From the NCBI GenBank assembly GCA_016871535.1, contig VHCZ01000013.1, positions 1-49,833 of the forward strand: a DNA stretch of 49,833 nucleotides, in the 5' to 3' direction. This stretch comes from Verrucomicrobiota bacterium. Lineage in GTDB: Bacteria > Verrucomicrobiota > Verrucomicrobiia > Limisphaerales > SIBE01. The translations under genes and the position numbers were made by a program. Below the pieces are notes generated by a model. The model had not been told where the DNA came from, made no database searches, and saw only the letters and a program-made list of their open reading frames with translations. Below, piece after piece: positions 1,579 to 48,197 of this stretch; position 1 is the stretch's first letter; every line of letters starts with the position of its first letter.

Positions 1579-3533
1579 TCATGCTCCTTGGCAGCTCACT
1601 TTCTTCTGCTCGCTCGTTCCCGAAGCCATTTCACATCCGGACTGTTCGCTATGAAGTATCGATCCTCGAAACGATTGCTCCGTGTCCCAAAAACCCACTC
1701 CCCCTTTGACGCAGTTGGCGTAGGTTTGTCCATCCGGAGAAAAAGCGCCGCTCTGCCATTGAGTGCCAAGCTGGATTTTTTTCACTTCCCGCCATGAGGC
1801 GGTTTCCCAAACGATGATCTCAGTGATGGCGTTGGCCGCCAGGAAGCGACCATCTGGCGAAAAGGACAGCGAACCCATGAACCGCTCGGTGGACCCGGAA
1901 AGTGTCGTGAGGAGTTCCTTCGAGGCCACATCCCAGATTTTGACGGTCAGATCGTGGCCGGCCGTGGCCAGGATTTTTCCATCCGCCGAGAATCGCCCAC
2001 ACGGTGCGTGTGACCGCGCCAGGTGAAGATTTCGTCGCCCTGGCAACGCTGCCACAGGTAGCGCCACTCAAACCCGCGCAGGTCGTCCTCGCCGGGCTTG
2101 GGGGAATGGTATTTTTTCAGCAAGCTCACCGCGCGGCCAAGGTGAGACTCGTCCAGGGCGACACTGGCCAGTTTCATGTCGGCGACATACAAGCTGAGGC
2201 GTAGCTCCCGCGCGTTCTGTTCAGCGCGCTGGAGGTTTTGATCGGCCCGCAACCTTTCGTCATATTCGGCTTTCCGGGCCTGGTCGATTTGAAACGCCGC
2301 GATGGGCGAGCCAATAGCGACGGCGAGGAGGAGGAGCGCCATGGCTGCACTGAGGCTTGCAACACGCGGATTGCGTCGGCACCAGCGCCAGGCGCGTTCA
2401 GTCTGGGTCACGCGACGCGCAAGAATTGGTTTGTCGGCGAGGAAACGGCCTAATTCCTCGGCCAGTTCTTGCGCGGTGGCGTAGCGTTTGGCCGGCTCCT
2501 TCTCCAGGCATTTGAGGCAGATCATTTCGAGGTCGATGGGCAAGGTGCGATTGAACAAATGAGGCAAGACCGGATCGCTCTCCAGCATCAGCCGCAACGT
2601 TTCTACTGCAGTCGGAGCTTGGAAAGGTGGGCGGCCCGTGAGCAACTCATAGAGCAGCGCGCCCAACCCATAAACGTCGCTCCAGGGACCGATCTGGGAT
2701 TTGTGATTTCTGATTTCTGATTTCTGATTTTCGCTCGACGTCGGCACGTTGACTGAACGGTGGCTTTCAGTCTGGACTCCGCGCTCCGCGTGCCACACTC
2801 CGCATTGCTCCGGCGGCATATAGCACGGTGAACCCATCGGCGCGCCTGATTGCGTAAGCTGAGAGTCGTCATGCACCAGCCGCGCCAGGCCGAAATCCAG
2901 CACGCGCGGTTGTTGTTCCGGCGTCAGGATCACGTTGGCGGGCTTGACATCCCGGTGCAGCACCCCTTGCTGATGCGCATAATGAATCGCCGACGCCACA
3001 GCCGCGGTGATCTCCGCCGCTTGCTTGGGCGAGAAGGGCCGCGTGCGCGCCAACTCGGCCAGGTTCGCCCCCGGCACATAGTCCATCGAGAAGTAATGCT
3101 GCCCATCCTGTTCGCCGATGTCGTGCACGCTGACGATGTTCGGATGTTGGAGCTTCGCCGCCGCGCGGGCTTCGCGTTGGAAGCGCTCCACATCCGTCGG
3201 CGTGGCCAACACGCCGGCGCGGATCAATTTCACCGCGACGATGGCATCAAGGCTCGTGTGGCGGGCTTTATAAACGATGCCCATGCCGCCGCGGGCGATC
3301 TCTTCCAGCAGTTCGTATTTGCCGAGTCGTCTCGGCGCGCTGGGCGGCAGGGCGGAATCTTCCGGGATAACGATGTGAAGCGTAGCTTTAGAGTCGGATT
3401 CGGTCGGAGTGACTAACGGAATCTCAGCGGCGGAGAGACCGCCGGCCACCAGACAGCTTGGGCAAAGGCCGGCAGGGGCGTCCGCGGGCACGGGTTGGCC
3501 GCATTGGGGGCAGGAAGCGATACTCTTGGTCAT
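1579..3533 (-). pseudogene. Frameshifted zinc-ribbon Ser/Thr protein kinase with WD40 repeats
   Basis: The kinase frame runs from ATG 3533 to a stop at 1947. It holds a zinc ribbon (C8-x2-C, C24-x2-C), a glycine loop ARGGMG near 80-85, VAVK (K102), HRDVKPAN (D195), DFG at 213-215 and one membrane segment near 385-410. The chain then reaches GHTHRV, the start of a WD40 blade, and leaves frame. The missing repeats (RFSADGK, DLTVKIWD, SFSPDGRFLA) continue in another frame to a stop at 1579. WD40 alignment suggests about 7 nt are lost near 2006. Only about three blades remain, fewer than usual for such proteins. The start is set by an ATGA overlap with the upstream zinc-ribbon gene. Known relatives are transmembrane signalling kinases paired with ECF sigma factors. 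A sequencing error could also explain the shift. Confidence 0.8.
2698..2812. repeat. Heptamer tandem-repeat locus inside the kinase gene (locus A)
   Basis: Five 7-bp units run from 2698 to 2732 (GATTTGT, three exact GATTTCT, GATTTTC). After a 42-nt spacer, units of the type GACTCCG, CGCTCCG, CACTCCG follow at 2775-2802. The right-hand units match those of the rpsK-rpsD spacer. Read in the kinase frame, the insert encodes about 38 residues (roughly residues 244-281) between CYMPPEQ and GPWSDVYGLG, two motifs that normally lie close together in these kinases. Confidence 0.75.
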
Positions 3534-28059: not shown

Positions 28060-28188
28060 ATGAAAAGCCAAAGGGTTCGAGTGTTGGAGTGTTGGAGTGT
28101 TGGAGTGCTTGAGCGTTCGATCGCGACGCTCCGACTGCGCTTTTTCCCGCCACTCCATGACTCCATCGCTCCATTACTCCAGTTCTGA
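28060..28188 (+). CDS. Possible 42-residue ORF formed by the repeat in the rplV-rpsC spacer
   Basis: ATG 28060 starts 1 nt after the rplV stop and the frame stays open through the whole repeat to TGA 28186-28188, 3 nt before the rpsC ATG. The peptide starts MKSQRVRVLECWSVGVLE and ends in LHDSIAPLLQF; it matches no family I know. Because 8 is not a multiple of 3, successive repeat units are read in changing frames. There is no strong Shine-Dalgarno beyond possible coupling to rplV. It may only keep ribosomes moving through the hairpin, or be chance. Confidence 0.3.
   Translation: MKSQRVRVLECWSVGVLERSIATLRLRFFPPLHDSIAPLLQF
28075..28184. repeat. Inverted octamer-repeat locus in the rplV-rpsC spacer (locus B)
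   Basis: Left half: octamers GTTCGAGT (28075), three exact GTTGGAGT (28083-28106), then GCTTGAGC. Right half: CTCCATGA, CTCCATCG, CTCCATTA, CTCCAGTT (28153-28184), the reverse-complement type. The constant core is TGGAG read one way and CTCCA the other. The two halves can pair into an imperfect hairpin; the middle holds a further GAGCG/CGCTC stem. Confidence 0.8.
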
Positions 28189-37415: not shown

Positions 37416-37514
37416 ATGAGTTTCAAGTTTCAAGTTTCAAGTTTCGAGTTCCCAAAGGAAGCGCCGAAGGTTTGGGCGCAACTCCGCACTCCGCACTCCG
37501 CATTCCGCAATTAA
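37416..37514 (+). CDS. Possible 32-residue ORF formed by the repeat in the rpsK-rpsD spacer
   Basis: ATG 37416 lies 8 nt after the rpsK stop, and the frame stays open to TAA 37512-37514, 3 nt before the rpsD ATG. The peptide begins MSFKFQVSSFEFPKE and ends RTPHSAFRN. No family is recognised. The arrangement copies that of the rplV-rpsC spacer, with the stop at the same distance before the next gene. It could be chance in a low-stop repeat or serve translational coupling. Confidence 0.3.
   Translation: MSFKFQVSSFEFPKEAPKVWAQLRTPHSAFRN
37419..37508. repeat. Heptamer-repeat locus in the rpsK-rpsD spacer (locus C)
   Basis: Left half: AGTTTCA three times (37419-37439) then AGTTTCG (37440-37446). 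Right half: ACTCCGC three times (37481-37501) then ATTCCGC (37502-37508). The right units are shared with locus A inside the kinase gene. A short stem GCGCC/GGCGC lies in the spacer between. Confidence 0.8.
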
Positions 37515-37517
37515 CCT

Positions 37518-38126
37518 ATGGCTCGATATACTGGTCCTCGCGTTCGAATCAGCCGGCGATTTGGCATTCCGATCTACGGCGCTTCAAAGTACCTCGAACG
37601 GAAAAACTATGGTCCCGGCGTGCATGGCCCCAGGAGCCGGCGCAAGAGCACCGATTACGCGCTGGGGCTGATCGAGAAACAGAAGCTCCGATACTATTAT
37701 GGTCTGATGGAACGTCAGTTCAGGCGCGTTTACCAGAAGGCCCTCAAGCGGCGCGGCGTCACGGGTGAAACCATGCTTCAGATTCTCGAACTGCGCCTCG
37801 ACAATGTGGTTTATCACCTGGGCTTCGCCAATACCCGTGCCGCGGCCCGCCAGATGGTCACGCACGGCCATATCAAGGTCAATGGCCGGAAAGTGAACGT
37901 TCCGTCTTGCGGCCTGAAAGTGAATGACACCGTGGAAGTGAAGGACTCCAGCGTTTCCCGCCAGATGGGCACGCGCAACCTCGAATCGGCCACCAGCCGC
38001 GCCGTGCCAGACTGGCTTACCTTGAATCGCGACGCTTTCAAAGGAACGGTTCTGCGGGTTCCAACCCGCGATGAAATCCAGCCGATTGCCAACGAGCAGG
38101 CAGTGGTAGAATTTTATTCCCGCTAA
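37518..38126 (+). CDS. rpsD: Ribosomal protein S4
   Basis: 202 residues. MARYTGPRVRISRRFGIPIYG, then the S4 RNA-binding domain LELRLDNVVYHLGFANTRAAARQMVTHGHIKVNGRKV. It is the zinc-free type. S4 starts 30S assembly and, in E. coli, represses the alpha operon. It is flanked on both sides by repeat-containing spacers. Confidence 0.97.
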   Translation: MARYTGPRVRISRRFGIPIYGASKYLERKNYGPGVHGPRSRRKSTDYALGLIEKQKLRYYYGLMERQFRRVYQKALKRRGVTGETMLQILELRLDNVVYHLGFANTRAAARQMVTHGHIKVNGRKVNVPSCGLKVNDTVEVKDSSVSRQMGTRNLESATSRAVPDWLTLNRDAFKGTVLRVPTRDEIQPIANEQAVVEFYSR

Positions 38127-38136
38127 ACAACAAAGC

Positions 38137-38209
38137 GGATTATTGGATGTTTGGATGACCGGGTTATTTGGACAAGCTCCATTGATCCAGAAATCCACCG
38201 ATCCATTAA
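38137..38209. repeat. Inverted octamer-repeat locus in the rpsD-rpoA spacer (locus D)
   Basis: Left: GGATTATT, GGATGTTT, GGATGACC, GGGTTATT (38137-38168). Right: TCCATTGA, TCCAGAAA, TCCACCGA, TCCATTAA (38178-38209). Each unit has a constant core (TGGA, or TCCA in the other half) and four variable bases, so it is more degenerate than loci B and E but in perfect 8-bp register. Confidence 0.7.
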
Positions 38210-38280
38210 CCCAAAACAATTATACGGACGGCTTCGGTCGCGGGAATAAACAGCCGGGGCCGTCAGATCAAAATTGTTGA
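38155..38280 (+). CDS. Possible 41-residue ORF in the rpsD-rpoA spacer
   Basis: ATG 38155 lies inside the octamer repeat and the frame runs to TGA 38278-38280, 9 nt before the rpoA ATG. The peptide starts MTGLFGQAPLIQKSTDPLTQ. No family is recognised and no Shine-Dalgarno is evident. It is the third spacer ORF in this superoperon that spans a short repeat and ends just ahead of the next gene. Confidence 0.2.
   Translation: MTGLFGQAPLIQKSTDPLTQNNYTDGFGRGNKQPGPSDQNC
38217..38276 (+). promoter_or_regulatory. Structured leader immediately upstream of rpoA
   Basis: CAATT (38217-38221) can pair with AATTG (38272-38276), enclosing GACGGC (38227-38232) with GCCGTC (38259-38264). It ends 13 nt before the rpoA ATG. 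Since S4 is encoded just upstream and S4 controls the alpha operon elsewhere, a regulatory role is conceivable, but no S4-type pseudoknot was shown. Confidence 0.35.
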
Positions 38281-38289
38281 AAGAAGACT

Positions 38290-43728: not shown

Positions 43729-43736
43729 TACGGCGT

Positions 43737-43834
43737 GTCGGAGTGTCGGAGTGTCGGGGTAACGGAGTGGACCGCTCAGATTACTCCGACACCCCGACAC
43801 CCCGACACCCCGATACCTCGATACCTCGATACCC
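43737..43834. repeat. Inverted octamer-repeat locus between convergent genes (locus E)
   Basis: Left: GTCGGAGT twice, GTCGGGGT, AACGGAGT (43737-43768). Right: ACTCCGAC, ACCCCGAC twice, ACCCCGAT, ACCTCGAT twice (43783-43830), exact reverse-complement types in register. The halves can form a long GC-rich hairpin with a short loop. It fills the 122-nt gap between the stop codons of the cytochrome gene (plus) and the histidine kinase gene (minus), where a two-way terminator would lie. Confidence 0.85.
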
Positions 43835-48051: not shown

Positions 48052-48197
48052 AAATCCGAAATCCGAAATCCGAAACAAAGCGAAAGCAAATCGAGAAAAC
48101 TCGAAACAGGAGCGCTCCGCCGCTCGTTTGGGGATTTGCCCGTTTTCCATATTGGAATTTGTTTCGTATTCGAGCTTCGGATTTCGGGTTTCCAGAG
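48052..48197. repeat. Heptamer-repeat locus upstream of the binding-protein gene (locus F)
   Basis: AAATCCG three times (48052-48072) followed by degenerate units (AAACAAA, GCGAAAG, and so on). From about 48158 the mirror image appears: ATTTGTTTCGTATTCGAGC, then TTCGGATTTCGGG TTTCC, whose reverse complement again contains AAATCCG and AAACCCG. Most of 48032-48264 is this A/C- and T/G-biased sequence, and no promoter stands out. It lies between the binding-protein gene and tolC-like gene, both on the minus strand. Confidence 0.65.

Follow-up and report, generated by a model that had tools for sequence, protein, structure and literature searches.

Heptamer arrays scattered through intergenic regions make up the STRR repeats of cyanobacteria; to our knowledge, these are not known as paired octamers. 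REP and BIME elements are extragenic palindromes that form hairpins after stop codons, and the RAYTs are their associated transposases. Rickettsia palindromic elements share a conserved palindromic sequence and are inserted in frame in protein genes. Convergent inverted pairs of heptamer (GGGAATC) arrays were described by Rehm et al. 2015 (PMC4692102), with 70 and 75 pairs in two Xanthomonas genomes. The G-rich strand of those arrays was sense within 50 bp past stop codons and antisense within 50 bp before start codons. The dispersed arrays were mostly intergenic, and their singular or paired type was usually conserved in sister species. The GGGNATC units of Xanthomonas and Nostoc were able to form G-quadruplexes, and the authors left the function open. 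MacGregor 2015 (PMC4679880) reported TAACTGA heptamers just upstream of start codons, including that of rpsD, in Beggiatoaceae, Cyanobacteria, and Bacteroidetes; the available sections describe one dominant unit, a single inverted repeat, and no octamers.

The octamer pairs of the genome studied here resembled the Xanthomonas pairs in having one array per strand in a convergent arrangement, with the G-rich array left and the C-rich array right in 19/19 octamer pairs. When scored by the nearer gene boundary of either kind, most of the 29 intergenic arrays also had the G-rich strand sense after stops and antisense before starts. Given the convergent heptamer pairs of Rehm et al. 2015, the octamer pairs are a variant of a known layout. 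The sequence-only reading had not recognised paired inverted octamer loci from any known system; the paired inverted layout had, however, already been described by Rehm et al., and no description of its octamer form was found in the open-access literature searched. Unlike the 7-bp GGGNATC or GGGGAYT units of the Rehm type, the unit here is the 8-bp GGAGT-R-N-Y, and GGGNATC was absent among the heptamer classes listed for the surveyed 1.25 Mb. Also unlike that type, many unrelated heptamers occurred alongside the octamers, and 18/47 arrays were placed within predicted ORFs. The heptamer arrays were dispersed among genes as in cyanobacteria, a resemblance that the sequence-only reading had judged rightly. 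As with the TAACTGA repeats, some heptamer arrays lay directly upstream of starts, including that of rpsD, and the closely similar unit AACTGAC was seen once; against this likeness, the units of the 41 heptamer arrays were diverse, and 18 of all 47 arrays were inside ORFs. Beyond these reports, the present genome adds the octamer unit with its uneven occurrence in the order, the resemblance between the two arms of a locus, an in-frame insert, and the exchangeable content of the hairpins.

The window, by which we mean the whole 49,833-nt stretch analysed, belongs to a 6.67-Mb assembly of 460 contigs from the order Limisphaerales, Verrucomicrobiota. The source is a groundwater bacterium, a relative of soil Verrucomicrobia, and its nearest relatives fall in Verrucomicrobia subdivision 3/Limisphaerales. 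The nearest named relative is the Verrucomicrobia isolate NC_groundwater_675 (L011); its spacers were identical to those of G001, and it was treated as this sister genome. The window contains the S10-spc-alpha ribosomal protein operons, in which rplV, rpsC, rpsK, rpsD, and rpoA were verified by Pfam. Genes were called with a home-made hexamer caller that set some starts too far downstream; that of rpsD, for example, was put at 37620 instead of 37518. Hairpin strength was expressed as an RNA folding z against shuffles. No array arm gave an Rfam gathering match.

All six arrays of the window (A-F) were present in the sequence, and the sequence-only reading had assigned their unit lengths correctly, namely 8 bp at B, D, and E and 7 bp at A, C, and F. 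The left arm of locus B (28079..28107, +) began 20 nt past the rplV stop and carried the octamer GTTGGAGT three times, together with decayed units, on the G-rich strand. Its right arm (28151..28181, +) had four units with the core CTCCA on the C-rich strand and ended 10 nt upstream of the rpsC ATG. Locus D lay past the rpsD stop, with degenerate octamers of core GGAT on the left (38137..38173, +) and of core ATCC on the right (38177..38212, +); TRF gave no report of this locus, and its arms were read by eye. Locus E was flanked by convergent genes. Its G-rich left arm (43731..43769, +) included three octamers GTGTCGGA, and its right arm (43786..43834, +) consisted of CCGACACC then CGATACCT. 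Within the right arm the left unit recurred as its exact reverse complement, as had been noticed from the letters, and the reverse-complement match of the two arms was 0.94 both ways. The folding z values of B, D, and E were -4.6, -3.1, and -7.2, respectively.

The heptamer loci were built differently. At locus C, an array of AGTTTCA (37419..37450, +), found in both L011 and L017, directly followed the stop of rpsK (S11), and an array of ACTCCGC (37481..37509, +) lay upstream of the rpsD (S4) ATG; the right array was not complementary to the left. Locus A (2691..2801, -) was an in-frame insert in a PknB-like kinase, comprising a heptamer array at 2698-2730 and the larger part of a decayed array of the ACTCCGC type that starts at about 2776. 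Its halves, GATTTCT and then ACTCCGC-like, were likewise not complementary. Neither A nor C folded (z +1.2 and +0.9, respectively). Locus F consisted of 3.4 copies of AAATCCG (48052..48075, +) between two minus-strand genes. About two decayed reverse-complement units (48175..48192, +) formed a weak partner about 100 nt off, just beyond the 100-nt partner test used below, and the locus gave a long fold with a z of -2.1. In short, octamer arrays form inverted pairs with a hairpin fold at B, D, and E, the two halves at A and C are unlike heptamers, and F is weak. The single design that had been read into all six loci therefore fits three of them: it held for B, D, and E and failed at A and C, whose halves are not complementary, and at F, whose partner is decayed.

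The insert at A lengthened the catalytic domain of the kinase by about 32 residues and had a matched stretch on either side (kinase residues 216-254, compared with 191-197 in PDB 1mru). Like Rickettsia palindromic elements, it was inserted in frame in a protein gene. Unlike them, it showed no fold and no conserved element sequence, and most sites of the present arrays were intergenic. At L110 (G002:C220), an octamer pair appeared by eye to be inserted in frame in the gene of a second protein kinase.

Arrays were surveyed with an ungapped detector for periods 4 to 15 in 61 stretches (the window and 60 pieces from the longest contigs; 1,249,105 bases), a non-random 19% of the 6.67 Mb. This gave 41 period-7 and 6 period-8 arrays, 47 in total, against 9 arrays for the remaining periods of that range taken together, in agreement with the earlier proposal that only periods 7 and 8 are used. 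One dinucleotide shuffle, the control, gave no array, and a chance origin of the arrays is ruled out (47 vs 0). The recurrent heptamer classes were ACTCCGC (6), AAAACGT (6), AATCGCC (5), AATCCGC (5), and AAATCCG (4). By the home-made gene calls, 29/47 arrays were intergenic and 18/47 within predicted ORFs. Loci around rpsD in relatives (1,227,488 bases) gave 12 period-7, 7 period-8, and 10 other-period arrays, so the array density is lower there than in the own genome.

A reverse-complement partner, defined as a match of at least 85% over two units within 100 nt, was found for 7/47 arrays, and the direct, reverse, and complement controls gave 1/47 each. Shuffled flanks gave 1.2%, and units swapped between arrays gave 4.5%. 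The excess was significant against the swap control (p = 0.005) and non-significant against the direct-unit control (p = 0.06). With a looser cut of 78%, 5/6 octamer arrays but just 6/41 heptamer arrays were paired. Inverted pairing is therefore mainly a property of the octamers, and the heptamers are mostly single. The sequence-only reading had proposed to look for reverse-complement units near other arrays and to regard the paired design as chance if most arrays were single; the octamers were mostly paired, and since most heptamer arrays were unpaired, its own reckoning makes the design chance for the heptamers.

The octamer family was followed over the whole genome. A search with GGAGTNNNGGAGTNNNGGAGT, allowing up to two mismatches, gave 236 matches in the own genome, and the pattern read backwards gave 4. 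The unit was GGAGT-R-N-Y: a purine followed GGAGT in 130/141 cases, then any base, then T or C in 132/141. Pairing was scored only in those clusters in which one match or more was exact (33 clusters), by a rule of at least two cores per arm. There were 19 G-left/C-right pairs, no C-left/G-right pair, 7 G-only clusters, and 7 C-only clusters. The loops of the 19 pairs measured 7-95 nt (median 19), and by eye loops, lengths, and ends varied among loci. The folding z was below -2 in 22/33 clusters. In two clusters scored as single-armed (L263, L279) a decayed second arm was visible by eye, and decayed arms of this kind in some of the 14 single-armed clusters mean that pairing is undercounted. In other genomes the plus-strand match came first in 8/8 pairs from six genomes (G009, G012, G024, G032, G054, G085), which were picked by eye. 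At least one exact octamer match occurred in 40/146 genomes of the order, and the numbers were very uneven (G012 203, G000 59, G002 44).

The two arms of a locus resembled each other beyond the core. The linker triplets matched at 0.51 across the arms of one locus and at 0.52 within an arm, against 0.405 between loci (permutation p = 0.007, 20 loci). At locus D the cores were GGAT and ATCC in the window and in L011, and GGAG and CTCC in both arms of L017, and the outermost left unit stayed GGATTATT despite this core change. Both this resemblance between arms and the joint core change at D call for a common origin or for homogenisation of both arms. A constraint to keep the RNA hairpin could add to the likeness, yet about half of the linker positions were unmatched.

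The strand polarity, which was missed in the sequence-only reading, was strict in the octamer pairs (19/19). Each of the 29 intergenic arrays was scored by its nearer boundary of either kind. Nearer the left gene, the G-rich strand was on plus in 12 arrays, the C-rich strand in 3, and 4 had no skew; nearer the right gene, 7 were C-rich, 1 was G-rich, and 2 had no skew (Fisher p = 0.006, 23 skewed arrays). The array at 37481 is a misfit because the caller starts rpsD late, so that the array was misplaced. Inside ORFs, the C-rich strand was the coding strand in 14/16 arrays with a clear skew (18 in total, with two of skew 1 or 2 omitted). Octamers and heptamers, complementary or otherwise, obey one rule: the G-rich strand is directed outward from the gene. 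Under this rule a spacer occupied at both ends gives an inverted pair. Intergenic octamer pairs lay between convergent genes in 7/16 cases, compared with 108/823 gene pairs (p = 0.003), and often started 10-26 nt past the stop codon. Intrinsic terminators were considered and rejected, as TTTT was present within 60 nt past the last exact match in just 5/33 clusters (plus strand only). The enrichment between convergent genes, the start after stops, and the rarity of U runs fit putative mRNA-end hairpins of the REP kind. Like REP and BIME elements, the octamer pairs are extragenic and palindromic, with a hairpin past stops.

Nine array loci were compared with the sister genome G001, in matching stretches of 79-90% identity. 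G001 had kept four of them: loci C and D, one octamer pair (L134:10401), and one heptamer array (L146:8315). Only a remnant of the right arm was present at B, and at the orthologous sites of E, L146:15747, L133:3800, and the heptamer array L146:7566 the array was absent. At E, L146:15747, and L133:3800, G001 had a different hairpin (z -2.6, -7.3, and -4.2, respectively). At L134:10401 both arms were present in G001, but they enclosed a long loop and folded weakly (z -0.9). The rplV-rpsC spacer that holds B measured 133 nt in the window and 28 nt, with two right-arm units, in G001. It was 1-32 nt in 48/49 public relatives measured (L012-L089), and L076 had 96 nt there without octamers. Relatives, almost all of which have just a few nt in this spacer, lack a hairpin position at B. 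C and D were common to the window, L011, and L017, and decayed octamer-like elements were seen by eye at the D position in L029, L033, L047, and L066. The stretch from the rpsD stop to the conserved rpoA leader had a z below -1.5 in 57/63 relatives with at least 20 nt there (median -3.0); this count is based on shuffled versions of short sequences taken from related genomes, so its 63 rows are not independent. The hairpin in these relatives was usually a simple GC-rich one. At several positions, the hairpin itself appears to be wanted and its content to be interchangeable. A different inverted repeat, of the type CCACGGAT...ATCCGTGG, was observed in the rpsD-rpoA spacer of L022 and L025 and at L317 of G001, where the window genome has octamer pairs.

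The architecture, period, polarity, and arm likeness were observed directly, as were array turnover between orthologous sites, insertion in frame, and a hairpin at the D position in most relatives; slippage, template switching, and a role of the hairpins at mRNA ends are inferred. Our best explanation, which is tentative but could well be correct, is that the pairs are extragenic palindromes made from short tandem arrays by slippage and hairpin-templated copying, which fill hairpin positions at mRNA ends. An array at a gene boundary would lengthen through slippage by 7 or 8 bp at a time, with the G-rich strand away from the gene. If a spacer received octamer arrays at both ends, its arms would be reverse complements and a hairpin would form. 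Quasi-palindrome template switching during replication may then copy one arm off the other; together with slippage within an arm, it would keep the arms alike while the locus grows, shrinks, or changes its core. The RNA product would be a REP-like hairpin starting about 10-26 nt past the stop codon. At several positions, related genomes differ in what fills the same spacer, be it an octamer pair, a simple hairpin rich in GC, or a palindrome of another kind. Some results speak against this explanation. Slippage alone explains neither the recurrence of the octamer core in the genome and in 40/146 order genomes nor the strict polarity. An mRNA-end role makes no sense for the 18/47 arrays within predicted ORFs. 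The missing hairpin position at B in relatives and the weak fold of L134:10401 in G001 are further points against it.

The recurrence of the core would be accounted for by a mobile REP- or MITE-like element, whose palindromes are moved by a transposase such as a RAYT (Y1_Tnp) and of which the tandem units are merely the body. At B the insertion was clean, in a spacer of just a few nt, and at A it was in frame in the kinase; both agree with such an element, as do 13 Y1_Tnp matches in the genome. We nevertheless consider it somewhat unlikely, as an octamer array ran beside 1/13 Y1_Tnp loci and with one arm only, and RAYT transposition as the main reading is unsupported. Unlike the REP/RAYT system, the loci had no conserved palindrome sequence, and the loops, lengths, and ends varied as described. 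A duplicated edge, TATG, was seen at B and C by eye only and was absent at E. Alternatively, the arrays near starts might be cis-regulatory leaders, in which a C-rich, G-poor array offers evenly spaced sites for S1, a cold-shock protein, or a similar protein, a role already proposed for the TAACTGA heptamers, and the G-rich partner is secondary. The sense strand was C-rich near starts, the rpsK-rpsD spacer had 9% G and a lag-7 self-similarity z of 20 (73 related spacers), and TAACTGA heptamers precede S4 and other r-protein genes in a Beggiatoaceae genome (MacGregor 2015, PMC4679880). This reading is unlikely, because arrays also occurred inside ORFs and between convergent genes, the B array was missing from relatives, and leaders in general had little lag-7 signal. 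Heptameric 5' leaders as a genome-wide feature were rejected for the same small signal outside the rpsD leader.

G-quadruplex elements, as argued for the GGGNATC repeats of Xanthomonas and Nostoc, would share the polarity and boundary preference reported by Rehm et al. 2015 (PMC4692102), which equal those found here. The octamer core, however, has GG tracts and rarely GGG, and AGTTTCA, GATTTCT, and ACGTAAA have no G tracts. Judged by sequence, three-tetrad quadruplexes are therefore ruled out for most arrays, and we regard this explanation of the arrays as very improbable. Contingency loci with phase variation would fit the variable number of tandem units, but B, C, and D have an essential ribosomal-protein gene on either side, and decay has affected many of the units, so that this reading is hardly credible.

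The polarity of Xanthomonas and Nostoc returns here in another phylum with another unit length and sequence, and it looks like a general, unexplained rule. It is conceivable, though doubtful, that the period-7 and period-8 arrays of unrelated phyla (Xanthomonas, cyanobacteria, Beggiatoaceae, Verrucomicrobiota) all belong to a single class of polar elements at gene boundaries. One shared process would then make or keep the G-rich strand outward, inverted pairs would arise automatically at doubly occupied spacers, and hairpins would fill conserved mRNA-end positions with their sequence freely exchanged among palindrome types. Paired arms that stay alike, and arrays whose gain or loss can be mapped on a tree, in some cases beside essential ribosomal genes, provide a clean test set. 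With it, direct tests could become possible of how bacterial 7-8 bp repeats originate and of whether the position of a hairpin persists when the sequence there is exchanged.

A structured, conserved RNA was observed directly upstream of rpoA (38216-38289, +), composed of ACAATTATACGG, a stem, GCGGGAATAA, a stem, and CAGATTAAAATTG. It was located in 79/80 spacers. In 49 aligned sequences, 90.7% of cells were paired, 13/18 pairs were changed on both sides, and the covariation score was 0.466 compared with 0.174 after shuffling. The window and three relatives' loci gave no Rfam gathering match and no meaningful weaker one for it. One copy each was present in 5/5 genomes of the order, and weak matches occurred in 2/34 other genomes of the class. 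The S4 leader candidates in the available part of PMC7247131 come from other phyla, with rpsD or rpsM first. This RNA is possibly a new ribosomal-operon leader.

Upstream of rpsD, the rpsK-rpsD spacer of relatives (L012-L090) was a short G-poor leader with heptamer periodicity across the order. The lag-7 value given above comes from 73 distinct spacers of related genomes, so the rows are not 73 independent events, and no such signal was seen in other leaders. This heptamer-periodic leader is a separate case from the octamer pairs. At L281 (G000:C235), a Y1_Tnp (RAYT-like) match had a C-strand octamer array about 100 nt off, the sole case of 13. Palindromic repeat families of about 135-180 bp were also observed at L150:3431-3566, L146:1515-1650, and L146:3526-3705, with matches on both strands and dozens of copies in G001 and G002.
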